From positions 1 to 32,306 of the IMG/VR virus record IMGVR_UViG_3300025098_002309: 32,306 nt of DNA. One strand, 5' to 3'. The notes beneath the pieces are model-generated. The model did no database searches. It was not told where the DNA came from and saw only the letters and a list, made by a program, of their open reading frames with translations. Positions 94 through 32,306 of the stretch are shown one piece after another. A program made the translations under genes and the position numbers. Numbering within the stretch: the stretch's first letter is position 1; each line of letters opens with the position of its first letter. This DNA comes from a virus.

Positions 94-112
94 AACAATT
101 AAAATTACAATT

Positions 113-1715: not shown

Positions 1716-1873
1716 TGTGGCATTACCTTAGTACAGATGATATGAAGTGGTTTAAACAACACTTATCACAAGAACAGTATTGGAAGTTATCTCATCAATG
1801 TAGAGCTAGGATACCGATGTTAAAATCAGTATATAATAAACTAAAGAAACGTTATGATAAACTTCCGAATTAA
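1715..1873 (+). CDS. Small unknown protein (52 aa)
   Basis: A 52-codon frame starts at the ATG of a TAATG stop/start overlap with the glycosyltransferase and ends at TAA 1871-1873, inside the bS21 gene (20-base overlap). The product starts M-W-H-Y-L and is rich in Lys, Arg, Trp and Tyr. Its basic C-terminal half (KLKKRYDKLP) suggests RNA or nucleic-acid contact, but no family is recognised. Its tight fit between two real genes, with overlaps at both ends, is the main reason to believe it. Without it there would be a gap of about 140 bases in an otherwise gapless run. Confidence 0.6.
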   Translation: MWHYLSTDDMKWFKQHLSQEQYWKLSHQCRARIPMLKSVYNKLKKRYDKLPN

Positions 1874-2069
1874 AGTTGGTAAGAAACCAATAGAAAAAGC
1901 CCTCAAACAATTTAAGCGTAAGTTCTCAGAGTATGAGATAAGAGAACAACTTATCGAAAGAAGAGAATATACAAAACCTACTACTAAACGTAGAAAACAG
2001 AAGATGGATGCTATCCGTCTAAATCAAATAGAAGTAATAAAACAAAAAGAAGAAGATGGGCGTAGCTAG
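1854..2069 (+). CDS. rpsU: Phage-encoded ribosomal protein bS21 homologue
   Basis: The 71-residue product matches bacterial bS21 along its length. It has an N-terminal strand (FRIKVGKKPIEKALKQFKRK, residues 4-23), the helix with KRKF, an RERREYTKP-type region (residues 35-42, ERREYTKP) and a basic tail (TKRRKQK). bS21 binds the 30S platform near the 3' end of 16S rRNA and helps initiation. Phage-borne bS21 is known from other phages. In flavobacteria bS21 helps bS18 and bS6 hide the anti-Shine-Dalgarno tail. This copy has no Tyr after residue 39, whereas a C-terminal Tyr of Flavobacterium bS21 is reported to touch that tail. No SD precedes its start. It overlaps the 52-aa gene by 20 bases and the next gene by 14. 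Confidence 0.88.
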   Translation: MINFRIKVGKKPIEKALKQFKRKFSEYEIREQLIERREYTKPTTKRRKQKMDAIRLNQIEVIKQKEEDGRS

Positions 2070-2382
2070 TGTTATTGAATTATCAGAATTATTAACTGAT
2101 GATAATTACAAAATATATAATGAAAGAAAACAAAAGATAAAAAGTAAATATCCAAAAGAATGTTTTCCAAATCATATACCAGATGGAAGTAAAGTTCCTG
2201 TTAAAAATATAACTTCATTACAAAGAAAGCAGTATCAAAGATATCTTAAAGAAATTGCTGATTTACTTTTTAAACCTAATGGGCCTTATCAAAAGTTTTC
2301 TTGGGATTATTTAACTCCACCTGCAGAAAAGATAATACGAGCTAGAAAAGCTAGAGGTAAATTAAAAACTGTAAAGTATTAG
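2056..2382 (+). CDS. Unknown basic early protein (108 aa)
   Basis: No family is recognised. The 108-residue product is Lys/Arg-rich, with a helical middle (SLQRKQYQRYLKEIADLL, about residues 54-71) and a strongly basic C-terminus (RARKARGKLK, about 95-104), consistent with nucleic-acid or ribosome binding. Its start lies inside the bS21 gene (14-base overlap), so it is probably translated with bS21 and could work with it; that is inference from position only. A weak purine stretch (AAGAAGAAG) precedes the ATG. It ends by overlapping the convergent sulfotransferase gene by four bases, leaving no room for a terminator between the two transcription directions. Confidence 0.7.
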   Translation: MGVASVIELSELLTDDNYKIYNERKQKIKSKYPKECFPNHIPDGSKVPVKNITSLQRKQYQRYLKEIADLLFKPNGPYQKFSWDYLTPPAEKIIRARKARGKLKTVKY

Positions 2383-13003: not shown

Positions 13004-13306
13004 TTATTTCCAACTATTTTGTTGTTGTACCCTTTTTTGTTCTCTTCTTTCTTCTTTGTTTATCTCTTCTTCCAATGATAAATAGTTTAACATCGTAACG
13101 AAGTTAACATCACTTACTCTTTTTTCTCCTGTAAGATTGAGGATTCCTCCATCTTTTGCGAGGTGGTAGAGTGTAAAGAACCATTGGTAGTGCTCAGCAA
13201 TTGATTTAGCTTCTTCTTCTCCTCCTCCGTCATCGTCTCGTATATTTTCTGGAAAGAGATTTCTAAATCTTTTGAGTATCTCAGACCTACGAACAAAAAA
13301 AAATTG
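13004..13306 (-). CDS. Frameshift extension of the tail assembly chaperone (-1 frame)
   Basis: This frame is open from upstream of the T9 run to TAA at 13004-13006. It has an ATG only by chance, inside the preceding gene (13360). It should be entered by a -1 shift at the T9 run, giving a fusion of residues 1-187 of the 247-aa protein plus 97 residues from this frame (284 aa). The extension contains AEHYQWFFTLYHLAKDGG and ends in a charged helix (EEEINKEERREQKRV). In lambda and many other phages such a fusion (gpGT) recruits the tape measure and tail tube during tail assembly. The 148-aa gene starts three bases after its stop, filling a gap that would otherwise be about 110 bases. Confidence 0.75.
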   Translation of the reverse strand, partial: QFFFVRRSEILKRFRNLFPENIRDDDGGGEEEAKSIAEHYQWFFTLYHLAKDGGILNLTGEKRVSDVNFVTMLNYLSLEEEINKEERREQKRVQQQNSWK

Positions 13307-13857
13307 TAAGCACCTAATGCTAGATTGATTGGAAGTGATTTGAATTGTTCTTTTCTCCACTCTCGTTTTTCTACATCGTAATCTTCTAATTTATAATACT
13401 TGAACAAAGATTCTGTCTTACCTAATGCGTATTTGTAATTAGATTTTATTTTCCACTCTAACCCATCGAACTTATGTTCTGTTATCGGTCTGTATAAGAT
13501 AGCTAACACTTCATTGATTTTATCTACACCATCTTTCATCCTTGCTTCTAAATCAATATACTCACCAGCAGACATCTTGTGTAAAGGTTGGAAACCCCAA
13601 GTTACTCCTTCCCATTCAAAGATTGGTAAGAACACAGGCTCTAACTCTGCTATTCTACTTTGTAAATCTTTGTATATCTGAAAAAGATAGTTAACTTTCC
13701 ATTTACCCACTTGTTCTTCTTTATAGCCTGAGATAGCAGATACTATTCTGATTATTCTTTGTGTTTGGGTTAAATGGTCTAACGTTCCAAAGTTTTGGTA
13801 TTGCTCTACCGTTATAACCTCTGGAATCTTTACCGTTACTAATTTTTTCTTGCTCAT
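13114..13857 (-). CDS. Tail assembly chaperone, unshifted form (247 aa)
   Basis: The 247-residue product is acidic to neutral and soluble, starting KKKLVTVKIPEVITVEQYQ, with motifs such as EWEGVTWGFQPLHKMSAGEY (residues about 84-103) and a helical C-terminal half. It overlaps the second frame by about 190 codable bases after a T9 run at codons 185-188, the arrangement of gpG-type tail chaperones. The unshifted form continues 60 residues past the slip site to TCTGLEKKE-like charged sequence before stopping at 13114. No SD precedes the start; a 14-base palindrome lies seven bases upstream. Unlike the usual order, the tape measure gene is not next door but about 17 kb away at the head end of the leftward region. 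Confidence 0.75.
   Translation of the reverse strand: MSKKKLVTVKIPEVITVEQYQNFGTLDHLTQTQRIIRIVSAISGYKEEQVGKWKVNYLFQIYKDLQSRIAELEPVFLPIFEWEGVTWGFQPLHKMSAGEYIDLEARMKDGVDKINEVLAILYRPITEHKFDGLEWKIKSNYKYALGKTESLFKYYKLEDYDVEKREWRKEQFKSLPINLALGAYNFFLFVGLRYSKDLEISFQKIYETMTEEEKKKLNQLLSTTNGSLHSTTSQKMEESSILQEKKE
13294..13305 (-). other. Predicted -1 frameshift slippery site (T9 run)
   Basis: Read on the minus strand, the site is AATTTTTTTTTG. In the 247-aa frame the codons are AAT TTT TTT TTG (185-188). Both T TTT TTT and T TTT TTG fit the X XXY YYZ rule for -1 slippage. Shifting here enters the long second frame at its Phe 22. Confidence 0.75.
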
Positions 13858-15947: not shown

Positions 15948-16271
15948 TTAGTTAAAATCAAATGTTATACTTCCTGTTGTTTCTTGTTGTATCTGTGTTT
16001 TCTCAATGTATCCTCTATTCTTACCTTTGGTCTTTAAATAAAAGATTTGGCCTGTGATGTTACCATCTTTGATTTGTTTAAACAATTGCGATTCTACAAA
16101 ATCAACTGCTTGTTCTTGTATATCATCACATTCTTTTCTAAACTTATCATCTTCATTCCACCAACGATAATAATGAGCACGAGATATATTAGCTTTCCTA
16201 CACGCTTGTGTAACTACTCCATGTGAATCTTCTAATGCCTTTAGAAGTTTTTGCTTTTTAGTTTGTCTCAT
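15948..16271 (-). CDS. terS: Probable terminase small subunit
   Basis: This 107-residue protein begins with an HTH-type segment (KLLKALEDSHGVVTQACRKA, then NISRAHYYRWWNED, residues 8-41), as in phage small terminase subunits of the homeodomain-like type. It continues with a helical stretch ending in GNITGQIFYLKTKGKNRGY (about 71-89), a pattern common to this group. It should recognise the packaging site and load the large subunit. It has a strong SD (AAGGAG) five bases before its start, overlapping the stop codon of the upstream methyltransferase. Two orphan methyltransferases flank it, so they might affect pac/cos recognition. A plain HTH regulator is the alternative. Confidence 0.75.
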   Translation of the reverse strand: MRQTKKQKLLKALEDSHGVVTQACRKANISRAHYYRWWNEDDKFRKECDDIQEQAVDFVESQLFKQIKDGNITGQIFYLKTKGKNRGYIEKTQIQQETTGSITFDFN

Positions 16272-16276
16272 TTGTA

Positions 16277-16282
16277 CTCCTT
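16277..16282 (-). promoter_or_regulatory. Shine-Dalgarno site of the terminase small subunit
   Basis: AAGGAG lies five bases before the ATG at 16271 and overlaps the TAA stop of the 380-aa methyltransferase gene, giving a stop/SD/start relay. Confidence 0.75.
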
Positions 16283-17423
16283 ATTCGAAAAACTCTCTAT
16301 GTTTATGTTTCCCTTCTTCGTGTTCTATTCTTGTCTTTGCTATCTTCATATACTCTTTCTCTCTTTCTATACCGATAAAATCCATTCCTTCTCTTACAGA
16401 TGCTTTACCAGTTGAACCACTACCCATAAATGGGTCAAGGACTGTTCCTCCTTTGGGTGTTACTAATCTTACCAAGTATGCCATCAAATCAGTTGGTTTG
16501 ACTGTTGGGTGAAAGTTATTTACTTTCTGGTCAAATAAATTATCATCTTTTGTAAATGCAGTTCCTATTGGTCTGTTATTCTTTTGTTCTACTATATCTA
16601 ATCCATCATTCCTATCTTTCTTTGATGCTTTAGGACAGTAGAAGAAACGAGAAGCTGATTCACTCTGTTCATCAAGTATCTTACCTGCTTCTTCATCAAA
16701 GATTATGTTGGCTGGAAATCTACCTACTGAACTCTCCTTTTCTCCTTCCCATTTACTACCTTCCTTATACCAATCCTTTCCTTCGTATTGTAATTTGTTT
16801 ATTTGTATAGTTTCATTTCCTACTCTACACTCATCTATGTTAATACCACCTGTCCCATACTCTAATACATTCTTTGCAACTGTTCCCTTAAAGGGTTTCC
16901 TTGCCATTACTATTGGTTCGTGTGCAGGTTTAAGAGCAGTTCCCCATCCTTCCCAACCTTTACCTTGTTCGGTTCTGGCTTCGTATTTATCTAACTTTTC
17001 ACCATTTGGTCTTGGTTCTCCAGTTGTTGGGTGAAATCTATTACCACTACTGATTGCATGTCCTCTATTACCTGCACCATTTAGTTTATCAATAGAATTA
17101 CCCACATTATGTGATTTAGGAAACCCACTTCCATATACCCACATGATTTGGTCTCTTATCTCAAACCCTGCATCTTCTACTGCTACTGCTTGTCTATGAT
17201 ATGTTCTACTATGTGAAAAGGAAAGGAGATGACCACCTGGTTTAAGAACTCGTAGAACTTCTTTCCATAGTTTAGGATTGTTTGCTATACCACTATCATC
17301 CCAACCTTTACCCATAAAACCAATTTCATATGGTGGGTCTGTAACTACTGAATCTATTGAATTATCTTGTAGTTCTTTTAATTTCTTTATACAATCTCCT
17401 TTTAATAATTTTATATTACTCAT
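16281..17423 (-). CDS. DNA methyltransferase, N6-adenine-like (DPPY)
   Basis: The product is 380 aa. Motif IV DPPY (residues 29-32) is followed by a PGGHLLSFSHSRTYH block. The SAM motif is DPFMGSGSTG (about 342-351), giving the beta-class order. A long central insertion (about 100-300), including FFYCPKASKKDRND, probably carries target recognition. DPPY favours adenine-N6 methylation. This type of single-gene enzyme is common in phages and plasmids and is usually not paired with a nuclease; none is seen here. It is two bases downstream of the 133-aa gene, and its stop overlaps the SD of the terminase small subunit gene, so it belongs to the packaging operon. Confidence 0.88.
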   Translation of the reverse strand: MSNIKLLKGDCIKKLKELQDNSIDSVVTDPPYEIGFMGKGWDDSGIANNPKLWKEVLRVLKPGGHLLSFSHSRTYHRQAVAVEDAGFEIRDQIMWVYGSGFPKSHNVGNSIDKLNGAGNRGHAISSGNRFHPTTGEPRPNGEKLDKYEARTEQGKGWEGWGTALKPAHEPIVMARKPFKGTVAKNVLEYGTGGINIDECRVGNETIQINKLQYEGKDWYKEGSKWEGEKESSVGRFPANIIFDEEAGKILDEQSESASRFFYCPKASKKDRNDGLDIVEQKNNRPIGTAFTKDDNLFDQKVNNFHPTVKPTDLMAYLVRLVTPKGGTVLDPFMGSGSTGKASVREGMDFIGIEREKEYMKIAKTRIEHEEGKHKHREFFE

Positions 17424-17425
17424 TC

Positions 17426-17827
17426 TTATTTCTTTTTAGTTCTTGTTTTTTTCTTTCTTGGTTTTACAGGCACAGATTTAGCTTTTACAAACTTATCCAT
17501 ACCATCTGATAAATCAGTATTAGATTTTTCTTCTAATGGTTTCTTTGCTTCTTCTTTGATTAGAGCTAGATTAGGAAGTAACTTATGAAACCTTTCTGTA
17601 AATCTTATCTCATCTGAGAATGTATAAGATGTTATAAAGTTATCTACCTTCTTTGCTGTATCGTTATCTAAACAAGTACATACACCACTATTCCTACCAT
17701 CGTTCTTAAACATTTGGTATATTTCGTACATATCTAATCTACAATCACCTCTATGCGAAGCTCCTTGACAGTATTCTATAAATGCAAGTATTTTTACTTC
17801 TTGTACATATTCTAATTTCTTTTTCAT
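17426..17827 (-). CDS. Unknown small protein with four Cys and a basic tail (133 aa)
   Basis: No family is recognised. Residues 1-95 are mixed helical with Cys at 20, 29, 50 and 52 (IEYCQGASHRGDC, then GVCTC), spaced as in possible metal-binding proteins. The last 25 residues are strongly basic (KPRKKKTRTKKK), suggesting DNA or RNA contact. It is coupled by a four-base ATGA overlap to the upstream 58-aa gene and lies two bases before the methyltransferase. A role in packaging or transcription control is conceivable, but nothing specific is shown. Confidence 0.65.
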   Translation of the reverse strand: MKKKLEYVQEVKILAFIEYCQGASHRGDCRLDMYEIYQMFKNDGRNSGVCTCLDNDTAKKVDNFITSYTFSDEIRFTERFHKLLPNLALIKEEAKKPLEEKSNTDLSDGMDKFVKAKSVPVKPRKKKTRTKKK

Positions 17828-18000
17828 TTTTTACAAGTTAAGTTATCTAGCCAATCTCTTCTTTCATCGCAACCACATGATTCGTAACCAAACCATTTAA
17901 CTGCTACAATGTATGCGTAGTATTTACCATTGCCAAAGGTTATCCAATCTATAAATTGTTCTAACCAAGTTCCTAATTTTATTTTACAACCCCATTTCAT
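17824..18000 (-). CDS. Small unknown protein with four Cys (58 aa)
   Basis: A 58-codon frame begins at ATG 18000-17998 and ends at TGA 17826-17824. Both ends use four-base ATGA overlaps: its start overlaps the stop of the HNH gene and its stop overlaps the start of the 133-aa gene. The product is rich in Trp, Tyr and Lys and has Cys at 5, 42, 44 and 56, including SCGCDERRDW (41-50). The CxC plus a distant Cys could bind metal. The double ATGA overlap in an otherwise 170-base gap makes it very likely real. No family is recognised. Confidence 0.75.
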   Translation of the reverse strand: MKWGCKIKLGTWLEQFIDWITFGNGKYYAYIVAVKWFGYESCGCDERRDWLDNLTCKK

Positions 18001-18572
18001 ATTACTTTATCTTTATTTTTTCTTAAATCATACATAGTGTATTTATCATCATACGAACCATCAAATCTTCGTGTCAGATACTTACCTGTTTCGAAATCTT
18101 TGTAATGTATAATATCTTTGATTACTCTATATACTCTTTGATATGTTATACCTACTTCATCAGCTACCGCATAATAACTACCTAACTTTTCGTATAATTT
18201 TACAAACTCATCTCTTCTGTTTCTAATAGAAGGTCCAAATTTCTTTTTATTAAACTTATCCATATTCTCTCTTGGAGTTAAAATTTGTAAGTTTTCTATT
18301 CTGTTATTAGTTGTATCAGAATCAATATGGTCTATCTGCTTACCTTCTGGTATATCACCTATAAACGCTTGATAGACTAATCTATGAACATATTGCAATC
18401 TTCCTCTTTTATCACCTTGTGGTGCAAACAATCTTACTTGATAATAACCTTTAGGTGATTGAGTTGCTTTCTGTTGTTTTAATTTTCTTTTCTTTTTGTT
18501 TTTGTATGAATATACATCACCTTCTTTTGTAATTGTGTACATTCCATCGTAGCCAACAATATCTATTTCCAT
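17997..18572 (-). CDS. HNH endonuclease with N-terminal NUMOD4-like domain
   Basis: The 191-residue protein starts with a NUMOD4-like segment (GYDGMYTITKEGDVYSYK, residues 7-24). An HNH_3-type core follows, with VHRLVYQAF (about 62-70), IDHIDSDTTNNRIENLQIL (about 80-98) and TPRENM; the His-Asp and Asn-Asn residues fit the nuclease site. The C-terminal third has an HTH-like stretch (YYAVADEVGITYQRVYRVIK). This is the build of phage homing endonucleases, so it is probably a selfish nuclease. HNH proteins next to terminases can also assist packaging in some phages. No interrupted host gene is visible nearby. It is three bases downstream of the sigma-like gene and coupled to the 58-aa gene. Confidence 0.85.
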   Translation of the reverse strand: MEIDIVGYDGMYTITKEGDVYSYKNKKKRKLKQQKATQSPKGYYQVRLFAPQGDKRGRLQYVHRLVYQAFIGDIPEGKQIDHIDSDTTNNRIENLQILTPRENMDKFNKKKFGPSIRNRRDEFVKLYEKLGSYYAVADEVGITYQRVYRVIKDIIHYKDFETGKYLTRRFDGSYDDKYTMYDLRKNKDKVI

Positions 18573-18575
18573 AAT

Positions 18576-19097
18576 TTACTTTGTTTTATAATCGTTTTTG
18601 TTAAAATTTAATTTTATGTTACTTGTTACATTATTTATTCCTTTAGCAATATGAATACGATTAATTCCATATTCTTTACTCATACTTCTTTGAGATGTAT
18701 TATCAAAATAAAATCTCTGTGAAATAGTTTTCTCATATAAAGGAAGTTTGCCGATGTAGATTTTTATATCATCAACAAGTTTACCAGCATCCAACTTCTT
18801 TTCTTCTACTTCCATTGCTACATCGTAATTATCAATATCTTGAGTTTTACGAGAGGCTTTTCTATACTGAGTATAGAATGGAGATGATTTAGAATTAAAT
18901 TGAATATAGACCATTCTAACGAGGTAATGCTGTACCCTATCATCGTTTAAGACCTTAGTAGTAACATCAGGTCCTTTTTCTAAGAACGCTAAGATACAAT
19001 CTTGCAATAAATCTTCTGTTAGATGGTGATTTCGAGTTACTCCTTTAACTTTTCTTAAAATCTCAGGATAGTTCTCTTGTATATACTTGTTTATCAT
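18576..19097 (-). CDS. Sigma-70-like transcription factor (ECF-size)
   Basis: The product has 173 residues. Region 2-like sequence is seen at TEDLLQDCILAFLEK (about 27-41), followed by YLVRMVYIQFN. A region 4-like HTH appears near the C-terminus: LPLYEKTISQRFYF, then SQRSMSKEYGINRIHIAKGI (about 135-154). The size and build match ECF-like sigma factors common in Bacteroidota phages. It may redirect host polymerase to leftward late promoters. It follows a terminator and two dyads, so it probably heads its own transcription unit and carries a good SD (AAAGG, five bases from the start). Region 2 is divergent; a non-sigma HTH protein is the main alternative. Confidence 0.7.
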   Translation of the reverse strand: MINKYIQENYPEILRKVKGVTRNHHLTEDLLQDCILAFLEKGPDVTTKVLNDDRVQHYLVRMVYIQFNSKSSPFYTQYRKASRKTQDIDNYDVAMEVEEKKLDAGKLVDDIKIYIGKLPLYEKTISQRFYFDNTSQRSMSKEYGINRIHIAKGINNVTSNIKLNFNKNDYKTK

Positions 19098-19102
19098 AAA
19101 TA

Positions 19103-19107
19103 CCTTT
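19103..19107 (-). promoter_or_regulatory. Shine-Dalgarno site of the sigma-like gene
   Basis: AAAGG on the minus strand, five bases before the ATG at 19097. Confidence 0.6.
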
Positions 19108-19120
19108 CATCGTTTAAGTA

Positions 19121-19138
19121 TAAGTATAACAATACTTA
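19121..19138. promoter_or_regulatory. Dyad with TAAGTAT half-sites, candidate operator
   Basis: TAAGTAT-AACA-ATACTTA is a perfect 7-base inverted repeat about 24 bases before the sigma-like start. A direct copy of AAGTATA lies next to it. The same half-site recurs in the dyad at 19212-19227 across the terminator, which suggests a regulator binding site. Confidence 0.4.
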
Positions 19139-19140
19139 CA

Positions 19141-19176
19141 AAAACGAAAAAACCCATTATATTTCTATAACGGGTT
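19141..19176 (-). terminator. Intrinsic terminator between fibre and sigma units
   Basis: On the minus strand an 11-base stem (AACCCGTTATA, loop GAAA, TATAATGGGTT, one mismatch) is followed by a T-rich run TTTTTTCGTTTT. It lies downstream of the 448-aa virion gene stop and upstream of the sigma-like gene, separating two leftward units. Confidence 0.8.
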
Positions 19177-19211
19177 CTTGTGAGTAATAAAATTTGTTGG
19201 CACAAATTGTT

Positions 19212-19227
19212 TATACTAATAAGTATA
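19212..19227. promoter_or_regulatory. Dyad with TATACT half-sites, candidate operator
   Basis: TATACT-AATA-AGTATA is a 6-base inverted repeat just past the stop of the 448-aa gene; its AAGTATA arm matches the dyad at 19121-19138. Confidence 0.3.
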
Positions 19228-19229
19228 GG

Positions 19230-20576
19230 TTAACCTAAAAATACCGTACCATTGTAGACTGGATTAGTACCTGTTGAATCTTTTATTCCATCTCCAATAT
19301 CCCAATCAGCTGGATGGTTAAATGAATAAACATCTATTGCTCCCATAGAGAAAGCGTTATCAGTATCATTATTTCTATCTGTGTTTGACTCTCCTCTATA
19401 CAACCAATAAAGAATATCATCATTAATAACTCCAATAGTTGCAGTTTCATTCGGTGTTTGATTTAAGGATATTTGTGGGAAACCTGTACTAGCTTGTGCA
19501 GCCATTACTCTTTCCCAACCACTATTACCACCTTTTGCAGTAAATCCTCCTAATATAAGAAGGTAGTTAGATTGAAATGATGGATTTAATTTTAAATCAT
19601 ATACATCTGAGTTTAAGTTATTACCTGGAGTATTCTCTTGGAAGTTAGTAGTCCAAGAAGTATTAATACTACCATCTTCATTAAATGCCATTATTCTTTT
19701 GTAATTACTATTACCAGCAAATGTTTCAAACTTACCACCAACTATCCATATTCCTGCTGAGCCTGAAGGAGCCCATGTTACAGCCAATACTGCTCCGTTA
19801 GGAATAGGGTCTGAGTATTGGTTTCCAAATATTGATGAACCGAAATCAAAGTTAGTATCTACTGTTCCATCTTGATTTAGTATTACAAGGTTATTATATT
19901 TGTTGTTAGTATTATTCCAACCAGTACCACTATGAGCTACACCAATCTTACCATTTGGATTTACATGAACATCGAGTATATTTTTGTTTGATATAGCTCC
20001 ACCTGGGTGTGTTGGTCCATCTCCTACTTGTGCTTCAAATGCTATATCAGGATTTAATGTACCTTGTTCGAATCTTGCAATTCCACCAGAGGTTGCATCA
20101 GAACCTGTTATTTGCATATTATACTCACCAAAACAATATACATATTCTTCTTGAGTATCAGTAACCATACCTCTTATATCTCCACCTGATGCTGGATGTA
20201 TGATTGATTGAGAGGTTGCTCCGGTTGCTTTATCTATCAAACGAGTTTCTCTAAATGTAGAAGATCCTGATAAAATTCTATTATCCATCATGATTGTACC
20301 TCTAGCTCCTTGAGAATAACGAACTAGTTGTAATACATAATTCGTATTTGGTGGTGGTTGATTTACTGTGTTATTCCAAGTAGTATCTAAAGAACCACTA
20401 AAATCCATTTTACCAAGACCACTAATTGTTACACTACCTAAATGAGAACCACTTATTTGATATGAACTATCACCACAAACATAAATAGAATCATAAGTTG
20501 GTATGTATGGTGGGGGTGGTTGTTGACCTACACCACCTGCAAAATTTGCTATTGGGTTTAAAACTATTCCTGGCAT
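19230..20576 (-). CDS. Beta-propeller-like virion protein with delta-60-type repeats (448 aa)
   Basis: Repeats of the delta-60 kind are visible: VILNQDGTVDTNFDFG, IMAFNEDGSINTSW, and more diverged GKMDFSGSLDTTW and GIARFEQGTLNPDIAF. They recur at intervals of about 50-90 residues, each after a strand with YNN-LV or KR. Such repeats form beta-propellers, mainly in secreted bacterial proteins. The N-terminus is short and Gly/Pro-rich (GGVGQQPPPPYIPTY), resembling a flexible attachment stalk. There is no signal peptide. It sits four bases downstream of the long fibre gene and before a terminator, so it is most likely the terminal receptor-binding part of that fibre; this is inference. Its start has no SD and may depend on coupling with the fibre gene. 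Confidence 0.65.
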   Translation of the reverse strand: MPGIVLNPIANFAGGVGQQPPPPYIPTYDSIYVCGDSSYQISGSHLGSVTISGLGKMDFSGSLDTTWNNTVNQPPPNTNYVLQLVRYSQGARGTIMMDNRILSGSSTFRETRLIDKATGATSQSIIHPASGGDIRGMVTDTQEEYVYCFGEYNMQITGSDATSGGIARFEQGTLNPDIAFEAQVGDGPTHPGGAISNKNILDVHVNPNGKIGVAHSGTGWNNTNNKYNNLVILNQDGTVDTNFDFGSSIFGNQYSDPIPNGAVLAVTWAPSGSAGIWIVGGKFETFAGNSNYKRIMAFNEDGSINTSWTTNFQENTPGNNLNSDVYDLKLNPSFQSNYLLILGGFTAKGGNSGWERVMAAQASTGFPQISLNQTPNETATIGVINDDILYWLYRGESNTDRNNDTDNAFSMGAIDVYSFNHPADWDIGDGIKDSTGTNPVYNGTVFLG

Positions 20577-20580
20577 AATG

Positions 20581-23175
20581 TTATACTAAGTTAACTACGT
20601 TTATTAAATAAACTTCTGATGTTGTTGAATTATCAAAAGTTGTAAATGTTAAAATATCTCTACCACCATTTACAGGGGTTGCTTGATAACTACTTCCTGA
20701 TGGTTGTAATATGTTACTACCAAATGATACTGTACCTACTCCTGTTGCTTTTACTAATAGATTTGTAACTCTTCCATCACTTGCGTTTGAAAACTCTAAA
20801 CGAGTATCTCCTGATGATGGTAAAGTTAACGTTTGCATTGTTGTATCATTAAAATCAATTGAAGCTGTACTGTTACTAATACCTATTGTACCTACATCTG
20901 TTCTGATACCATTTTTGAAGTGAGTTTCACTAAGAAGATTTATTGTACCAGTTCCAGATTCTATTTCTTCTATCACAGCAATGTTAGCTACAAGTTCATT
21001 TGAATTAACTGTTCCGTTAGGAATATCAATCACTTGTCCTGCAGAACTCATTACTATCTCTCCACTAATTCCAATGTTACCTTGTACGGTAACATTTGTT
21101 CCTACTATTCCTGCTAAAGCTGAATTAACTACTGTTAGTCTATCACTACTACCATCATTAACTATGAATGTATTAGCAGGACCTGCTTGTGTATCTTTGA
21201 AAGTACTAGTACCATTAGATGAACTAACGATTAGTGGAAGTTTAGATTCTACTTTAGATGATGAACCACCATCGAATAGAGTATCACCATTTTGTGTGTT
21301 TATTACAACCTCTGTACCTGTTATACCTGCAAGAGCTGGATTAGATACACCAATTATAGTATTGGTTGAATTGTTAACATCAAATATATTTAGTGGTCCT
21401 GCACCTGATGCATCTTTTACAATAAATGAACCACTTAATAATCCAGCTCCATTTTGTGTTGTATTACCATTAATTAAACCATTACCATTTAATACATAAT
21501 CAGTACCTGTTATAGTTCCTAATGCGCTATTGTTAATGTCTAAAACTGGCGATGCTCCACCTGCTCTAACTGAGAATGTTGCGCCTGGTGCTGGATTAAC
21601 ATCTTGGAATGTAGTTGAACCACTAATAACAGTATCCTTTTGTATCGTTACTTGAGCTGCTCCATTTGATTGTATATTATCAAAGAATGCATTACTAGCT
21701 GCAACTTCTGCAGCTTCTACTGCTCCGTTAGGAGCTACAACGTTTCCACCTGCTTCTATACTATCTTGTAATATTAATGAACCACTAATAGTTTGGTCAC
21801 CTACAAATACATTAGAACCTGTTGTTGCAAATGAACCTGTATCTATTGTACCTCCTCCACCAGCGAATGATGAAGTTGCTACTGCTTGTGGTACACCACT
21901 ACCATCTCCTACCCATGCGTATCCTTCTTGTATGTTTGGTAAATCATTACTTCTTTGTATAGCAGATACTACTATCTCTCCATTGTTTTGTTGTACTCTA
22001 CCAATTACACCTATGTTCTGTATAAGGTTTGTACCTGTTGGTTTAACGTTTGTGTATCCACCTCCACTAGCAACATATAAAGTATCTCCTACTGATGGTG
22101 ATGTTAAACCAGTATCAGTATCTACATCTGCAAAGTTTCCAGCTACTGCGATAAAGATATGGTCATTGTTACTTGCATTTACCATAGCTAAACCAACTAC
22201 TGGCATCTTAGAAGAATCACTAGCATCTGCTTTTAAAACTTCTGGTTTTGATTCACCACTATTGTATCCACTAACATATACAGGATCACCTTTAGTTAAG
22301 GTTTCTTTTGCAATTACAGGAAACTGTACTGCATCTGCGTGTTCTGCATTCTCTGCTTCTTCCGAGAATAATGCGTAAGATGCGGTTGCTGATGGATTGA
22401 AGTTAAGTGCGAATGAAGATGTTGTTGCAAAATCAGCATGAGATGCAGATAGTGCTGATGATACTTGACCATCTATTCTACTACCACTTAAATCACCTGT
22501 TGTTGATTGTAAGATTATCTGTGATGAACCACTTACTACTCCTGAAGGTAAACCTGCTTCACTACCACTTAGTTGATATCTTGTATCGTAAGATGATGTA
22601 AGTTGTGATGAACCACTAACTATTCCAACTGGTTTGTTTGTAAGGTTATTCCAATCTGCACTAGCAGTTGTTGTAGAACTTATTGTTACATCACCAGTTG
22701 ATTGGTCAATGTTAATATTGTTTCCTGCAATGATAGAAGTTACACCACCATTACTTGCAGTTACGTTTGTTAAACCACTAGCATCTCCACTAAATGAACC
22801 TGTGAAATTTGAAGTTCCATTATCAAAACCATGTTGAACACCTTGTATTCTTCCACCGAAGTTATTTATATTAGAACTAAAAGTTTCTAAAGTAGAATTT
22901 AATGATACATAATCATTTAATATAACTTGAGCATCAAATGTATTAATTCCTGTAAAGGTATTAGAACCAGTAGTTGCGAATGAACCAGTATCTATTTGTT
23001 GTGCATTCTCAGCATAAGATGCAGTAAGTGCGTGTGTTGCTTCTGAAGAAGTTACTGATAAGTTTTCAATTAAAGAACCTGTTCCATCATATATCAAACC
23101 AGTGGGTTTGTCATGCTGCATCACTTGCTGAAATGATGAACTTATTTCTTGATTTGTTAAATTATAATTTGACAT
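20581..23175 (-). CDS. Long tail fibre / virion fibre protein (864 aa)
   Basis: This is a low-Cys protein rich in Gly, Ser, Thr, Asn and Ala, with short repeats typical of marine phage fibres. SGSSQLTSSYDTRYQLSGS and VSGSSQI recur, and TGSFATTGSN-F-G appears twice (about residues 63 and 445). Three longer repeats of about 60-70 residues in the second half share FxDxxxGPxxxFxVxxxxS, then V-N-S/P-AL-G-I-x-GT-x-V. These suggest a trimeric beta-fibre with repeating shaft elements. A compact middle region (about 280-400, including TKGDPVYVSGYN and SVGDTLYVASGGGYTN) is a phage-fibre insert domain. No chaperone or enzymatic end domain is seen. It has an SD (AGAGGAT) nine bases before its start. Confidence 0.8.
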   Translation of the reverse strand: MSNYNLTNQEISSSFQQVMQHDKPTGLIYDGTGSLIENLSVTSSEATHALTASYAENAQQIDTGSFATTGSNTFTGINTFDAQVILNDYVSLNSTLETFSSNINNFGGRIQGVQHGFDNGTSNFTGSFSGDASGLTNVTASNGGVTSIIAGNNINIDQSTGDVTISSTTTASADWNNLTNKPVGIVSGSSQLTSSYDTRYQLSGSEAGLPSGVVSGSSQIILQSTTGDLSGSRIDGQVSSALSASHADFATTSSFALNFNPSATASYALFSEEAENAEHADAVQFPVIAKETLTKGDPVYVSGYNSGESKPEVLKADASDSSKMPVVGLAMVNASNNDHIFIAVAGNFADVDTDTGLTSPSVGDTLYVASGGGYTNVKPTGTNLIQNIGVIGRVQQNNGEIVVSAIQRSNDLPNIQEGYAWVGDGSGVPQAVATSSFAGGGGTIDTGSFATTGSNVFVGDQTISGSLILQDSIEAGGNVVAPNGAVEAAEVAASNAFFDNIQSNGAAQVTIQKDTVISGSTTFQDVNPAPGATFSVRAGGASPVLDINNSALGTITGTDYVLNGNGLINGNTTQNGAGLLSGSFIVKDASGAGPLNIFDVNNSTNTIIGVSNPALAGITGTEVVINTQNGDTLFDGGSSSKVESKLPLIVSSSNGTSTFKDTQAGPANTFIVNDGSSDRLTVVNSALAGIVGTNVTVQGNIGISGEIVMSSAGQVIDIPNGTVNSNELVANIAVIEEIESGTGTINLLSETHFKNGIRTDVGTIGISNSTASIDFNDTTMQTLTLPSSGDTRLEFSNASDGRVTNLLVKATGVGTVSFGSNILQPSGSSYQATPVNGGRDILTFTTFDNSTTSEVYLINVVNLV

Positions 23176-23183
23176 ATTGTTTT

Positions 23184-23190
23184 ATCCTCT
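23184..23190 (-). promoter_or_regulatory. Shine-Dalgarno site of the fibre gene
   Basis: AGAGGAT on the minus strand, about eight to nine bases before the ATG at 23175; overlaps the end of the connector gene. Confidence 0.6.
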
Positions 23191-23771
23191 TATTGTGGTA
23201 AATAGTTGTATCGTGAGTTAGTAACCTTTATACCTAATCCTTCAATCCCATCTCTCACACCATTTCTAAAAACGATTGGTGATTTGAATTGAGTGTTTGT
23301 ATCAGGCCAAATATCATCATTTGTTTCAGTTCCATATTCTGGAAATAAATTATTATTGAAACATAGATAGTCTACTAATCTTTCACTAAAATATTCTGCT
23401 TTGTTTTTTGTTGATTGTCTTTTCTTATCGTATAATGCTAAATCTGCATCTATATTATTTTCACCACCTGTTGGTTTTACTAAACCAGCATTTCTTGGTC
23501 TTAAATAAATTGATTCTAATGATTCGTAGTATGCCCAATAAATTAAAGCATCTTGTACATATTCATCTACTAATGATTTGTAGTTGCCTGTTAGCGTACC
23601 ACTATCTACATCAGATAGTATCTTATCGTATAATTTAGAACCTAAGAGACGAGTAATGTGAATTATCTGTGCTTCTCTAATTACTGATGAAAGTAAATCA
23701 GGATCTAATACATTGTTTATGTCTGTGAATCTTTTTAATTTAGCTTCACTCACTAATAGGGTATTCTCCAT
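23190..23771 (-). CDS. Head-tail connector-like protein (193 aa)
   Basis: The N-terminal half is helical and resembles head-tail connectors of Bacteroidota phages: LLVSEAKLKRFTDINNVLDP (residues 5-24), SVIREAQIIHITRLLGSKLY (about 29-48), then VDEYVQDALIYWAYYESL. The position supports this, as it directly follows and overlaps the portal gene by 26 bases. It would bridge portal and tail. The C-terminal part (about 130-193) is polar and may form loops exposed to the tail. A strong SD (AAAAAAGGAG) sits seven bases before the start, inside the portal gene. The family is inferred from pattern and position. Confidence 0.7.
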   Translation of the reverse strand: MENTLLVSEAKLKRFTDINNVLDPDLLSSVIREAQIIHITRLLGSKLYDKILSDVDSGTLTGNYKSLVDEYVQDALIYWAYYESLESIYLRPRNAGLVKPTGGENNIDADLALYDKKRQSTKNKAEYFSERLVDYLCFNNNLFPEYGTETNDDIWPDTNTQFKSPIVFRNGVRDGIEGLGIKVTNSRYNYLPQ

Positions 23772-24975
23772 TTTGGTTCTCCTTTTTTTCTATTTCGTTT
23801 TCTAATTCTGAATCATCTCCACTCTCTGCTTCGATTGATGTTGTAACATCTACTTCTTCCCCATCTTCAAATATTCTTATTGATTCTATACCAATTGGTT
23901 CTTCATATCCGTTTATCTTAAATATCTCTTCAAATGTAGTTAGAATATCAGATTGTTTTGGTTGAATTACATTTGCTACAAATAAAGCTTGTGATTCTAA
24001 TAACTCTGTTCTTCCTCCTAATTGTCCTTCGGTTCTAATACCTAACAACATAGGTGAAACGATTCTATGTGCTGTAAGTATCTTTTGTAATACCATATCA
24101 TTGACAGTAGTATAATAACCATCAGCACCATTTTGTGGGATTGGGGTAATGACTGGGGCTTCATCTTTATTCGCCACATCCATATAGATAAGAGAACCAG
24201 CATTATCACTTCCTGCATATGCATCTCTTAATTGTCTTTCTATTACATCTCTATCTTCGTTATCTGCATTAGTAAATGTTGTAATAGATAAAGAAGGTGC
24301 TAAACCATTCTTTATATTATTCTTATGGAAATTATCTATTTCCGCATCTAATGCTATAATGTTTAATCCTGCGTTATAATCAGGTAGTGGATAGTATCTC
24401 ATACCTGGTCTGTAAGGATTAAAGTAATACATCTGTGATGGTGATTCTCTATCTACCTTACTAAACTTTGGTATATAAACAACATCATCATCAGATATTC
24501 TTAATCTTCCTTTGTTCTCAAATTGTGATGAAACAAAATAGCCAGGTATAATACCTCTTTCATTCATTCTATGAGCTCTAATATAAGAAAAATCTATATG
24601 ATAAACATCAGTAATTTTAGTTCTATCGTTAGACCAGATAACTTCAAGAGCGTATCCTCCAAAGAGTGCTCTATCTAAAGCTACTTTCTTAAAGATATCA
24701 TTCCATGATTCACCATCTCGGTTTGCTCTTTCTAATACAGTTTCATCTTCGGTAGTTAAACCACCACCTACTATACCATCTGTAATTGCGTTAATTGCAG
24801 TAGCATTGATTGAGGATTTATTGTATAGTTCTGTAATATAATGTGGAAAATCATTTCGTTCTCCGTAATATACTATCTTTCCTTTATCATCTTCAAATAC
24901 CTTTGATGTAGGATACATTTCTTCCCTATACTTTGGTATTATCATTAATTTATGTTTATTTAATTCTTTTTTCAT
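23746..24975 (-). CDS. Portal protein
   Basis: The 409-residue protein has the build of HK97/SPP1-type portals of Bacteroidota phages: an early SINATAINAITDGIVGGGL segment (about 55-73), a wing with FFGGYAL-like RALFGGYALEVIW (about 102-114), the central IIALDAEIDNFHKNNIKNG helix (about 206-224), and a typical HRIVSPMLLGIRTEGQLG (about 305-322). The C-terminus is acidic (SGDDSELENEIEKKE). It forms the dodecameric ring through which DNA passes. At 409 aa it is on the short side. It follows the 172-aa gene by three bases, overlaps the connector gene by 26 bases, and has an SD (AAGGAT) before its start. Confidence 0.88.
   Translation of the reverse strand: MKKELNKHKLMIIPKYREEMYPTSKVFEDDKGKIVYYGERNDFPHYITELYNKSSINATAINAITDGIVGGGLTTEDETVLERANRDGESWNDIFKKVALDRALFGGYALEVIWSNDRTKITDVYHIDFSYIRAHRMNERGIIPGYFVSSQFENKGRLRISDDDVVYIPKFSKVDRESPSQMYYFNPYRPGMRYYPLPDYNAGLNIIALDAEIDNFHKNNIKNGLAPSLSITTFTNADNEDRDVIERQLRDAYAGSDNAGSLIYMDVANKDEAPVITPIPQNGADGYYTTVNDMVLQKILTAHRIVSPMLLGIRTEGQLGGRTELLESQALFVANVIQPKQSDILTTFEEIFKINGYEEPIGIESIRIFEDGEEVDVTTSIEAESGDDSELENEIEKKENQNGEYPISE
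23779..23789 (-). promoter_or_regulatory. Strong Shine-Dalgarno site of the connector gene
   Basis: AAAAAAAGGAG, seven bases before the ATG at 23771, lies inside the end of the portal gene, where it is read as codons for Lys/Glu. Confidence 0.75.
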
Positions 24976-24978
24976 CTG

Positions 24979-25497
24979 TTATCCTTGATATACTGTATAT
25001 ACTGCGTTCTCATTAGATGATATATATTTCTTCTCAATGGGTGAGACTGAACCTGAAATAAATACTCTATCTGTGTATTTTAGTTCACCACTCGTTACAT
25101 CGTTGTAAGTTGGTATTGATGTATCTGGAGTTGCCCAAATTGCTGAGGTAGCTCCAAATGTACTTGTTGTTGTTCCCCACACAATTGCGGCAGAACCTGT
25201 AAAGGGATAACCATAATATATTTCTAAATTATAAGTTGTTCCGTTTTCTGCTCCTAATTTTTCACTAAAGTAATCAGAAGAAGAAGATATATCAAAATTT
25301 AAAACTTCCCAACGAGGGTTATCCTCGCTAGTAGTTGGTACTTTTGTAATAGAGGCTGAGCCTGTATTATTAGATAAGGTAGGATAGATTACTATATTGA
25401 AAACTTTACCATCTTCATAAGAACTCGTTACAAGAGGTGTATCGGTTTCTTTTTGGTAAGTTATAGTATTCTGTTGATTTGCTTTTAAAGTTATCAT
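24979..25497 (-). CDS. Structural protein, unknown (172 aa)
   Basis: No family is recognised. The product is Thr/Ser/Tyr-rich with many predicted beta strands (FNIVIYPTLS, TYNLEIYYGYP, DRVFISGSVS) and no signal or membrane segment. It lies between the probable tail tube gene and the portal gene in the head-module run, so it is most likely a minor head or tail component such as a decoration protein. An AGGAG precedes its start by four bases, immediately after a strong RNA hairpin. Confidence 0.6.
   Translation of the reverse strand: MITLKANQQNTITYQKETDTPLVTSSYEDGKVFNIVIYPTLSNNTGSASITKVPTTSEDNPRWEVLNFDISSSSDYFSEKLGAENGTTYNLEIYYGYPFTGSAAIVWGTTTSTFGATSAIWATPDTSIPTYNDVTSGELKYTDRVFISGSVSPIEKKYISSNENAVYTVYQG
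24981..24986 (-). promoter_or_regulatory. Shine-Dalgarno site of the portal gene
   Basis: AAGGAT, about five to six bases before the ATG at 24975. Confidence 0.6.
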
Positions 25498-25501
25498 ATA
25501 T

Positions 25502-25506
25502 CTCCT
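25502..25506 (-). promoter_or_regulatory. Shine-Dalgarno site of the 172-aa gene
   Basis: AGGAG, four bases before the ATG at 25497; it lies between a strong hairpin and the start, so it would be at the 5' end of any processed transcript. Confidence 0.6.
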
Positions 25507-25513
25507 ATATAAA

Positions 25514-25547
25514 AGGAATAAGGGGGTATTACTACCCCCATGTTCCT
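25514..25547 (-). terminator. Strong hairpin downstream of the tail tube gene
   Basis: On the minus strand GGGGGTA-GTAA-TACCCCC is a perfect seven-pair stem, with an outer AGGAA/TTCCT stem. It follows the stop of the 181-aa gene by nine bases. The trailing sequence TTATTCCTTTTATAT is only moderately T-rich, so it is more likely a partial terminator or an mRNA 3'-stabilising hairpin than a complete stop. Confidence 0.65.
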
Positions 25548-25555
25548 AATAATTG

Positions 25556-26101
25556 TTATTGGTCAATGGTAATACCTGTCAATACTGCATTCAAATCAGA
25601 ACCCGATACTGGTATCGCTGGTTCTGGCTCTTGTGCCGTAAAGGTTAATGTATATCCATTTGCATCTCCAATTGCAGTTCCTGTTTGACCCTGTCCTCCG
25701 TTAAGTTGAGCTCCATAAGTTTTACCAAGATAAAAGAATTTATCACCCTCCGTACCCGCGTTGTTTGTTTCAACAATCATCTTTAGGTCTGGATTTTGTG
25801 CTAATACTTTCATTTGGTTTCTTAATGCAGACTGCATCTTAAGAAAAACAGCATTTACTGTTGACTCGTAGAAAACTGTTCCATTCTCAGTTGAACCATT
25901 AATGGTTTCTGTAAAATCGGAAGTTCCTCTTGTCAAGTCAAACTGATAAAATATTCCACTACCATTTAAATCTGTAACTTGACCTGAAGTCTCTGTTACA
26001 CCTGATTCAGGTAATGAGCCAGACAAGATATACAATGTTTTGATTCCACCTGCGTTGTCTCTACATCCGAGAGAAAATCCTGCTGTAATATCACATGACA
26101 T
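25556..26101 (-). CDS. Probable major tail tube protein (181 aa)
   Basis: The 181-residue product starts CDITAGFSLGCRDNAGGIKT, a pattern I associate with tail tube-like proteins of Bacteroidota phages. It continues with beta-rich segments (FYQFDLTRGTSDF, VIVETNN-like KMIVETNN, KFFYLGKTYGAQL) and a final NGYTLTFTAQEPEPA strand. It has no signal sequence. It directly follows the major capsid gene and is followed by a strong hairpin, consistent with a highly expressed structural protein. A head decoration protein is the main alternative, since position after the capsid gene is usual for decoration proteins. Confidence 0.6.
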   Translation of the reverse strand: MSCDITAGFSLGCRDNAGGIKTLYILSGSLPESGVTETSGQVTDLNGSGIFYQFDLTRGTSDFTETINGSTENGTVFYESTVNAVFLKMQSALRNQMKVLAQNPDLKMIVETNNAGTEGDKFFYLGKTYGAQLNGGQGQTGTAIGDANGYTLTFTAQEPEPAIPVSGSDLNAVLTGITIDQ

Positions 26102-26109
26102 AATTTATA

Positions 26110-26115
26110 TCCTTT
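26110..26115 (-). promoter_or_regulatory. Shine-Dalgarno site of the tail tube-like gene
   Basis: AAAGGA, about eight to nine bases before the ATG at 26101. Confidence 0.6.
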
Positions 26116-26136
26116 CTTTAGTTATTTAATCAGTTA

Positions 26137-27060
26137 TTATAAGTTGTTAGTCACCCAAAATTCTGGATATGCTACTTGTACACCTAACTTAGTTACAATT
26201 CTGTGCTTAAGTTGGTCACCATTGATATCATACCACATTTGGAAGTTATCCAAATCAGATACCAAGTCAGTTCCAATTACGATTTGTCTCGCTGGACCTG
26301 TTACGATTCTATCAGAACCTGCTAATCCTACTGTACCAACTATTGTTAAGTTAGCGAATGGGTGTTTAGCTGACATTAGTGAACCTCTGTTCTCTACTGT
26401 GTTAGGGTCATAGAAATAGTTGTTAGCTTTTCTTAAAGCAACGATGTATTTTCTAAAGTTAGCGATTGACATAAATACTGTTAAGTCATCTCTATCTTGT
26501 ACATCTACTGAAAGATTTTCTAATTGCTCATCGATTTGTTCAAGTAGATTATCAGATGTTGGTGCTGATTGTGAAACAAATGTTGCACTATCTGCAGATG
26601 AACCTGATGCTAGTAGTGTGTTAAGACCATCTGTACAATCTCCAGCTGCAGTAGTTGCAGTCCAGATAAATTGGTCATTTTTCTTTTGGAAGTTAGCTAC
26701 AAGTTGTGAAGCATATTCTTCAGCAAAAGCATAAGTCTCAGGGTAAGAACCTGCTGGTCCTAATAGTCCGATATACTTGCTATCTAAATCTCTTAAACAT
26801 AGTCCATCAAATGAACTTCTCTGACACACTTCGATATCTCTTTGTGTGTAAGTTACAGAACCAGATGGTGTTGTTACACATCCTGCTCCGTCTTGGATTA
26901 CCAAGTCAATTTCTTGAAGGTTTAAAGGCTCTTTGTACTTTATTCCTTCTTTTACAGTTACATACTCTGCCGTTGAACCAGCAATAACCGACTTTACAAG
27001 GAATTCCCCTGCAAGTTCGTTATTGAAAGCATCAAGTGCAGATACATTAAATCCTGCCAT
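26137..27060 (-). CDS. Major capsid protein, HK97-fold-like
   Basis: The 307-residue product follows the scaffold gene and shows capsid features. An N-terminal arm-like region is seen (AGFNVSALDAFNNELAGEFL, residues 2-21), as are a middle helical stretch (YAFAEEYASQLVANFQKKND, about 110-129), a LLEQIDEQLENL spine helix, and a C-terminal A-domain-like VGTVGLAGSDRIV ending in TKLGVQVAYPEFWVTNNL. There are several Cys, including CVTT, CQRS, CLRD and DCTD. It assembles around the acidic scaffold and is probably matured by the 613-aa protease. A strong SD (AAAAAGGAG, seven bases away) indicates high expression. Confidence 0.85.
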   Translation of the reverse strand: MAGFNVSALDAFNNELAGEFLVKSVIAGSTAEYVTVKEGIKYKEPLNLQEIDLVIQDGAGCVTTPSGSVTYTQRDIEVCQRSSFDGLCLRDLDSKYIGLLGPAGSYPETYAFAEEYASQLVANFQKKNDQFIWTATTAAGDCTDGLNTLLASGSSADSATFVSQSAPTSDNLLEQIDEQLENLSVDVQDRDDLTVFMSIANFRKYIVALRKANNYFYDPNTVENRGSLMSAKHPFANLTIVGTVGLAGSDRIVTGPARQIVIGTDLVSDLDNFQMWYDINGDQLKHRIVTKLGVQVAYPEFWVTNNL

Positions 27061-27067
27061 AATAATT

Positions 27068-27076
27068 CTCCTTTTT
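27068..27076 (-). promoter_or_regulatory. Strong Shine-Dalgarno site of the major capsid gene
   Basis: AAAAAGGAG, seven bases before the ATG at 27060. Such motifs are unusual in flavobacterial genes. Confidence 0.85.
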
Positions 27077-27764
27077 AGTTTTTCTTACGTCCTTTAACCA
27101 ATCTTTCGAATTGAGCTTTTTTGTTAGAATCGCTTGGATTATAGCTCACATCTACTGAATTGTTTCTTCCGTAAGATTTTTTGTTGTTAGTAATAGTTTT
27201 TTCAGTTGCAGGTGCAGCGTTAAATGCCTCTTTAACTGTGTTGATTTCACCTAATAATTCTTCTTTAAGAGCGGTGAATTGCTCTTTAAACTCTCCTCCA
27301 ATCATTTGGATGATAGCTTCGTGTAGTTCAGAAATATCAGATTTTTCTTCTTCTGATAATTCAGCTTCTTCACTCATTTCTTCTTCGCTTTCTGCTTCAA
27401 CTTCTGCATCAACGATAGAGGTAATTACACCTCCTTCCGTTGAGATTGATATATCACCCTCTAATGCGTGAGTACCATCTGGTGCAGGGATGTCTCCATC
27501 CTCTGTAATAACGAATATCGCAAGTGCTTCAGCTAACTCATCCCCTTCATATTTGAGGGTAAGCTCGCCATCAGCAGTTTTGATTTCGCCAAAAGTTTCT
27601 TCAGTAGTTTCTTCTGATAAAGTTTCTTCAACAACTTCTTCAGTTGTAGCTTCCACTACTTCCTCTGAAAGTTTTTCTTCAACTTTAACATCTTCTACTA
27701 CTTCGGGAGAAGCTTCAACTAGGTTGAAATGCTTTTTCACTAATTCTTTTAGTGCGTTTTTCAT
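27075..27764 (-). CDS. Head scaffolding protein (acidic, 229 aa)
   Basis: The product is strongly acidic for most of its length (long Glu/Thr/Val-rich stretches, EEVVEATTEEVVEETL at about 34-49). Helical segments follow at about 115-175 and the C-terminus is basic (KKAQFERLVKGRKKN). An acidic coiled body plus a basic tail that binds capsid is the usual build of phage scaffold proteins. It sits between the prohead protease and the major capsid gene, the standard place for scaffold. It would be removed by the protease during maturation. A strong SD (AAAAAGGAG, six bases from the start) supports high expression. Confidence 0.8.
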   Translation of the reverse strand: MKNALKELVKKHFNLVEASPEVVEDVKVEEKLSEEVVEATTEEVVEETLSEETTEETFGEIKTADGELTLKYEGDELAEALAIFVITEDGDIPAPDGTHALEGDISISTEGGVITSIVDAEVEAESEEEMSEEAELSEEEKSDISELHEAIIQMIGGEFKEQFTALKEELLGEINTVKEAFNAAPATEKTITNNKKSYGRNNSVDVSYNPSDSNKKAQFERLVKGRKKN

Positions 27765-27770
27765 AATAAA

Positions 27771-27779
27771 CTCCTTTTT
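27771..27779 (-). promoter_or_regulatory. Strong Shine-Dalgarno site of the scaffold gene
   Basis: AAAAAGGAG, six bases before the ATG at 27764; the same motif precedes the capsid gene. Confidence 0.85.
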
Positions 27780-31848: not shown

Positions 31849-31878
31849 TTTGGATAATTCAAATATTTTTCGTATCTT
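31849..31878 (+). promoter_or_regulatory. Early promoter copy P3 (lipoprotein gene)
   Basis: TTTGG, then the invariant CAAATATTTTTCGTATCTT core, 22 bases before the lipoprotein ATG. The -33 TTTG and the -7-like TATCTT are spaced by 20 bases, as in Bacteroidota promoters. Confidence 0.75.
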
Positions 31879-31900
31879 CCAGATATAAATTACTTAAAAT

Positions 31901-32160: not shown

Positions 32161-32182
32161 GCGTCAGTAAGATTTAAATTAT

Positions 32183-32272
32183 ATGATTAACCAAAAAAAT
32201 ATTTTAAAAATAATTCAAAATAAATTAGGATATATCAAATATTTTTCGTATCTTCCAGGTATAAACAATTAA
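32183..32272 (+). CDS. Possible 29-aa micro-ORF, right copy
   Basis: The same 29-codon frame as at 4-93, here with its upstream context: promoter P4 ends 23 bases before, and TTTAAATTATATG resembles other early starts. It contains promoter P2. Coding status is unproven. Confidence 0.3.
   Translation: MINQKNILKIIQNKLGYIKYFSYLPGINN
32225..32254 (+). promoter_or_regulatory. Early promoter copy P2
   Basis: Identical to P1 (TTAGG and the invariant core), 37 bases before the partial gene at 32292. Together with P4 it forms a closely spaced tandem pair of early promoters. Confidence 0.7.
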
Positions 32273-32291
32273 AACAATTAAAATTACAATT

Positions 32292-32306
32292 ATGAGTAAA
32301 ACAATT
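32292..32306 (+). CDS. Start of a gene cut by the window end
   Basis: ATG followed by codons for S-K-T-I, identical to the first five codons of the gene at 356. It sits directly behind the 115-bp repeat leader, so it may be the same gene in a variant lacking the 79-aa gene, or a paralogue. Confidence 0.5.

Follow-up and report, generated by a model that had tools for sequence, protein, structure and literature searches.

Flavobacteriales ribosomes have been reported to ignore Shine-Dalgarno (SD) sequences, with the tail of the 16S rRNA held by bS21, bS18, and bS6 (PMC9976891). In Flavobacterium johnsoniae, an obvious SD is found on rpsU alone; the translation of strong-SD reporters increased when bS21 was depleted, truncated at its C-terminus, or given the Y54A substitution, and a weak AGGA site was without effect (PMC9976891). 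A recognizable SD was reported in five genes only of Flavobacterium phage FL-1 (PMC5465603). Lake phages with predicted Bacteroidetes hosts encode their own bS21, proposed to favor late phage mRNAs (PMC9723584).

The present study concerns IMGVR_UViG_3300025098_002309, a 32,306-base IMG/VR virus record that is classed as linear and was analyzed at its full length (the window). Like the lake phages, it has its own bS21 and a predicted host in this phylum. However, the lake phages are large myoviruses with bS21s that keep an aromatic residue 54 and are proposed to block the anti-SD in the manner of host bS21, and SDs on phage genes go unmentioned in the passages considered (PMC9723584); the window genome is about 32 kb, its bS21 has Arg, and its head genes carry SDs. 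The mechanism we propose shares with the bS21-lacking specialized ribosomes and rpsU autoregulation of F. johnsoniae the gating of the anti-SD by bS21 and the gain of strong-SD mRNAs upon loss of bS21 or of the Tyr54 contact. There, a single host gene is served through its extended SD; here, moderate SDs extend across an entire head operon of the phage, and the proposed agent is a phage bS21, the gene for which lacks an SD, unlike rpsU (PMC9976891).

Gene organization of the window

The main features are as follows; the names capsid, scaffold, and connector are based mainly on gene position.

61-112, plus strand: Bacteroidota-like early promoter region with the TTCGTATCTT element, and A/T leader of rightward genes
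113-2382 and 31901, plus strand: rightward genes, facing a long leftward block
1854-2069, plus strand: phage bS21 gene (PF01165, E=5e-11, 42.6 bits against a cut-off of 27), SD-less leader
2056-2382, plus strand: basic 108-aa protein, no Pfam match
Leftward block, first part, minus strand: tape measure 29674, protease 27782, scaffold-like 27075, capsid-like 26137, 25556, 24979
Leftward block, middle, minus strand: portal 23746, connector-like 23190, 20581, 19230, sigma-like 18576, HNH 17997
Leftward block, last part, minus strand: methyltransferases, TerS 15948, TerL 13905, tail genes, glycosyltransferases

The record ends are alike over ~115 bases (1-115 and 32181-32295) and then diverge. The shared bases lie in a repeated promoter-leader region. 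From these shared ends, the record probably covers nearly the whole genome and lacks some early genes. Three near-copies of the early promoter-leader unit lie at the contig ends (1-115 and 31850-32295), which is probably why the assembly stopped. Downstream of TerL, the frames 13114-13857 and 13004-13360 overlap, an arrangement that suggests a tail-chaperone frameshift.

SD sites in the window

Each leader was scored for pairing, without gaps, to the tail of the Bacteroidota 16S rRNA (CACCUCCUUUCU) within the spacing range of an SD, with energies given without an initiation penalty. The following sites were identified.

27771-27777, minus strand: AAAGGAG of scaffold-like gene 27075-27764, helix -11.2
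27068-27074, minus strand: AAAGGAG of major-capsid-like gene 26137-27060, helix -11.2
26110-26117, minus strand: AGAAAGGA of gene 25556-26101, helix -13.1
25502-25506, minus strand: AGGAG of gene 24979-25497, helix -9.3
24982-24986, minus strand: weaker AAGGA of portal gene 23746-24975, helix -7.7, adjoining the stop of the upstream gene
23779-23785, minus strand: AAAGGAG of connector-like gene 23190-23771, helix -11.2, within the portal coding region
23185-23190, minus strand: AGAGGA of gene 20581-23175, helix -8.6
19102-19107, minus strand: weak site (AAAGG/AGGU) of sigma-like gene 18576-19097, helix -6.7
16277-16282, minus strand: AAGGAG of TerS 15948-16271, helix -10.2, overlapping the stop codon of 16281-17423

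An earlier note on this DNA described a split between early and late genes, with A/T leaders on rightward genes and AAGGAG-type sites on leftward head and packaging genes, even inside the portal gene (connector) and across a stop codon (TerS). Both embedded sites were read directly, and the leaders of all six listed rightward genes (113, 356, 594, 1854, 2056, and 31901; for example, TTTTAAATT-ATG) score zero. A well-spaced AGGAG-type site, with a helix energy of -7.5 or below, was present in 8 of 10 head/packaging genes, 1 of 16 other leftward genes, and none of the 6 rightward genes. Head genes differed from other leftward genes (Fisher p=0.0002), whereas strand alone gave no significant difference in SD sites between left and right (p=0.15), in agreement with the note's view that the pattern follows function rather than strand. 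However, the early/late wording was incorrect because the late-strand TerL, tail, protease (27782, AGGA only), tape-measure (29674), and methyltransferase genes lack strong sites. The tail gene 10798 has GGAG at a longer spacing. The split is real, and it is between the head module and the remaining genes.

The note named, as a result that would refute it, an SD frequency among leftward genes no higher than A/G-rich leaders would give; its claim survived this test. Leader purine content was similar across gene classes (0.66 in head, 0.64 in other leftward, and 0.63 in rightward genes). The helix energies of the ten head leaders summed to -89 kcal/mol, beyond every one of 1000 composition-preserving shuffles (mean -17.8, minimum -47.5). 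Per-leader dinucleotide shuffles are a weak control because they retain the dinucleotides of the site itself; mock windows, mononucleotide shuffles, and relatives were used in their place.

Conservation in viral relatives

Among 80 viral loci from a portal search, a site was found in 53.7% of 754 called genes, against 5.6% in mock windows. In the closer clade (portal identity of about 71% or more), every unique leader of the connector (25/25), 25556 (26/26), major capsid (25/25), and scaffold (17/17) genes had the site, while about 5% of mock windows reached the threshold. The site was also present in 82% of 17 unique leaders of gene 20581 and in three of five unique relative leaders of TerS. 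Gene 24979 keeps AAGGAG in nearer relatives and has a site in 58% of all unique leaders; 55% of unique closer-clade portal leaders were at -7.5 or below. For the sigma-like gene, the site of which is stronger in several relatives, the proportion was 65%. No closer-clade leader of HNH, 17426, or the tape measure had a site, and 17824 (1/10) and TerL (2/9) rarely did. Longer relatives of the opposite orientation repeated this gene-specific pattern, and SDs were present in a cousin clade.

A chance origin in A/G-rich leftward transcripts was considered because skews in the window make these transcripts purine-rich and 13 to 20% of internal ATGs score -7 or below. The relatives, mock windows, and shuffles refute this explanation, leaving it a negligible probability. 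It is also very improbable that rRNA does not read the AGGAG element and that the element serves instead as the operator of an RNA-binding protein from the phage or as a purine enhancer of a general kind. Host initiation does favor upstream adenines (PMC9976891); however, purine content is similar between gene classes, and the motif varies (AAGGAG, GAGGAG, AAGGGA, and AGGAGG) yet retains both its complementarity to the anti-SD and the spacing of an SD. We read the conserved head-gene sites as the result of selection rather than composition. A conserved complement to the anti-SD, SD spacing, and a frequency above composition, as in SD-directed initiation, coincide in head genes only.

Promoters and start types

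The early promoters have the form TTTG-N20-TATCTTT, and the TTCGTATCTT element also occurs at 31850-31900 and in two relatives (G008 and G003). Bacteroidota-type promoters were slightly more frequent than expected upstream of genes, both in the clade and in related phages. In relatives, the ATG of the tape-measure, 13114-like, and some protease genes mostly lies 5-9, typically 7, bases after a TATAAT box with ACCA upstream (G004, G009, G011, G014, and G015), and TATAATTTA occurs 41 times in the clade against 18.8 expected. Judging from these sequences, the TATAAT/ACCA element is likely a phage late promoter that yields leaderless late mRNAs. This suggests three start types: leaderless starts, head cistrons with SDs, and remaining genes with neither. 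These start types would partly account for a split that is not simply early/late. The sigma-factor-like gene 18576-19097 (phrog_1740, E 1e-7), preceded by a hairpin with a T-run and a conserved ATACTTATACTTAAA element, may serve this late promoter and is a candidate late sigma factor.

Flavobacteriia baseline

In 80 Flavobacterium rpsU neighborhoods, the 1461 genes (80 rpsU included) showed no SD excess (8.2% vs 7.2% in mock windows). Eight cultured Flavobacteriia phages also had none (5.4% vs 6.5% mock), with 1 of 29 head starts bearing a site, and the stretches read, 30 kb for most of these phages, yielded no bS21. Nonlabens phage P12024L (NC_018272), a cultured Flavobacteriia phage, has a related portal (28% identity); however, it showed no SD excess, and bS21 was not found. 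Based on these controls, the clade of the window is exceptional in its SD use if its host is of the Flavobacteriia type.

Phage bS21

The bS21 gene was missed in the earlier note and offers a possible cause of the SD pattern. Among related records, 13 of 32 carry bS21. Aligned to its best PDB match, the window protein places Arg55 opposite the tyrosine of the cellular protein (the Tyr54 position). The F. johnsoniae reference sequence has 64 residues, as does the 7jil chain, and matches genome records at 98% identity. Tyr54 is kept in all 80 Flavobacterium-type host loci. In place of the aromatic residue 54 of Bacteroidia-type, anti-SD-sequestering bS21, Arg occupies this position in the window and in all 10 distinct bS21s of the closer clade; the only bS21 of the cousin clade (G023) has Tyr. 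The loss of Tyr54 as a phage-only trait was rejected: Arg-54 lineages exist within the Bacteroidota phylum, and Arg is common in other Bacteroidota. In a bS21 tree built on few columns, the phage Arg-54 proteins clustered apart from host Arg-54 proteins, which argues against recent copying from the sampled hosts.

The extended SD of rpsU-type autoregulation was absent from the phage gene: the window bS21 leader scores 0 and host rpsU about -21.6. Phage bS21 genes almost never have an SD and would, therefore, be readable by ordinary host ribosomes. The basic 108-aa protein also lies beside bS21 in five relatives (G011, L194, L197, L202, and L228) and is a possible partner in bS21 exchange. Separately, Cellulophaga phage phi14:2 has an annotated ribosomal protein S6 glutaminyl transferase (L447, 22510-23379). 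Since bS6 helps to form the pocket for the anti-SD, this enzyme could conceivably give phages a further way of acting on the anti-SD.

Residue 54 and SD use in hosts and viruses

In a phylogenetically unbalanced sample of 40 Bacteroidota-phylum genomes, the 13 with aromatic-54 bS21 (217 genes) showed no SD excess (4.1% vs 4.6% mock), whereas the 27 with Arg-54 (454 genes) did (19.8% vs 7.3%, p=0.001); the excess persisted in Arg-54 genomes below 46% GC. In these host loci (L391-L434), Arg for Tyr at position 54 accompanies SD use. Of the viral bS21 clusters, which are not fully independent, 11 of 21 with Arg were in SD-bearing loci against 2 of 16 with an aromatic residue (p=0.017). SD-bearing Arg-54 phages tested had an excess of Bacteroidota-type promoters, in small counts. 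One SD-bearing phage with a Tyr-54 bS21 (G051) lacks such promoters and may have a host of another kind. Four Arg-54 phages (G036, G040, G053, and G035, the last with a homologous head module) have no SDs. Arg-54 is associated with SD use and is insufficient alone.

These four phages, and the cousin clade with its SDs and the Tyr-type bS21 of G023, weaken the case for anti-SD release by phage bS21. The same observations favor another explanation, namely, that the SDs pair with the anti-SD of an SD-blind host after release by a fall in bS21 of the host, by a different phage factor, or by unfolding confined to busy operons. We consider this improbable because phage and host statistics link residue 54 to SD use, and the cultured Flavobacteriia phages, for which bS21 was not found in the stretches read, lack an SD excess.

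Host

The host is probably a member of Bacteroidota, as the type of the early promoters would fit. Among phage records, portal relatives were found only in Nonlabens and Bacteroides phages. Gene 31901 encodes a lipoprotein with a CSKDD sequence, which we take to be typical of Bacteroidota export signals. A scan of genome contigs based on the portal alignment gave no relative, and portal profiles over 395 genomes of the phylum and 300 of one family gave three distant matches and no clade provirus. The G142 prophage showed no SD excess. A search of 345 genomes for spacer-like DNA gave short, low-complexity, or methyltransferase matches and, judged from coordinates, no convincing spacer. Tetranucleotide comparison did not clearly separate host types.

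The main rival to a switch by phage bS21 is that an Arg-54 Bacteroidota host with SD-competent ribosomes already uses SDs, the phage placing strong ordinary sites on its most abundant proteins and carrying bS21 as a host-like spare part. The SD excess of Arg-54 lineages in the phylum fits this explanation, as does the lack of a provirus or spacer linking the phage to a Tyr-54 host in these searches. However, the phage has ~34% GC against 41-68% in most Arg-54 genomes sampled (1 of 27 at 32%), its non-head genes lack SDs, and its bS21 belongs to the separate phage group. We regard an Arg-54 host of this kind as rather unlikely, though a serious contender.

Proposed mechanism

We tentatively propose, at somewhat short of an even chance, that phage bS21 frees the anti-SD so that head genes are translated via their SDs. 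The fuller form, held a little more cautiously, is that, during infection, an Arg-54 phage bS21 makes Bacteroidota ribosomes that are blind to SDs able to read them, with matching SDs on the head operon only. Here we infer a Tyr-54 host, incorporation of the phage protein, anti-SD release, and preferential translation. One phage would then have two translation regimes. The SD-less A/T leaders of early and accessory genes, including bS21, would suit ribosomes with the anti-SD folded in the bS21-bS18-bS6 pocket. Phage bS21, without the tyrosine that helps to hold the 16S tail, would enter host 30S subunits and leave the anti-SD free. The altered ribosomes would prefer the head operon (scaffold, capsid, portal, connector, and neighbors) with its selected AGGAG-type sites.

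Support for this model comes from the head-specific, conserved SDs; the Flavobacterium loci and eight cultured phages without an SD excess; the uniform Arg-54 of closer-clade bS21s; the relationship between residue 54 and SD use in host genomes and viral clusters; the Bacteroidota type of the early promoters; and the increase in strong-SD translation upon Y54A, truncation, or depletion (PMC9976891). The model is weakened by the strength of the phage SDs (-8 to -13), which is far below that of rpsU, and by the ineffectiveness of a weak AGGA in F. johnsoniae (PMC9976891). Moreover, bS21 and late genes share a strand in some relatives.

Implications

Ribosomal proteins, and bS21 in particular, are commonly encoded by phages. 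In the literature searched, which included few subscription papers or preprints, we found no report of SDs on the head genes of such phages or of a link to bS21. The mRNA side is visible here as a conserved, operon-specific initiation signal that normal Flavobacteriia ribosomes reportedly ignore, and the genome that carries it also encodes a bS21 without the anti-SD-holding residue. Since operon-specific SDs and an altered bS21 occur together, phage re-programming of host ribosomes is directly testable with F. johnsoniae reporters. The association of SD use with residue 54 of bS21 in host genomes is of value independently of the phage. If the proposed mechanism is true, it would represent ribosome specialization made by a virus with its own mRNA code, and this phage may re-tune host ribosomes toward the production of virus particles.
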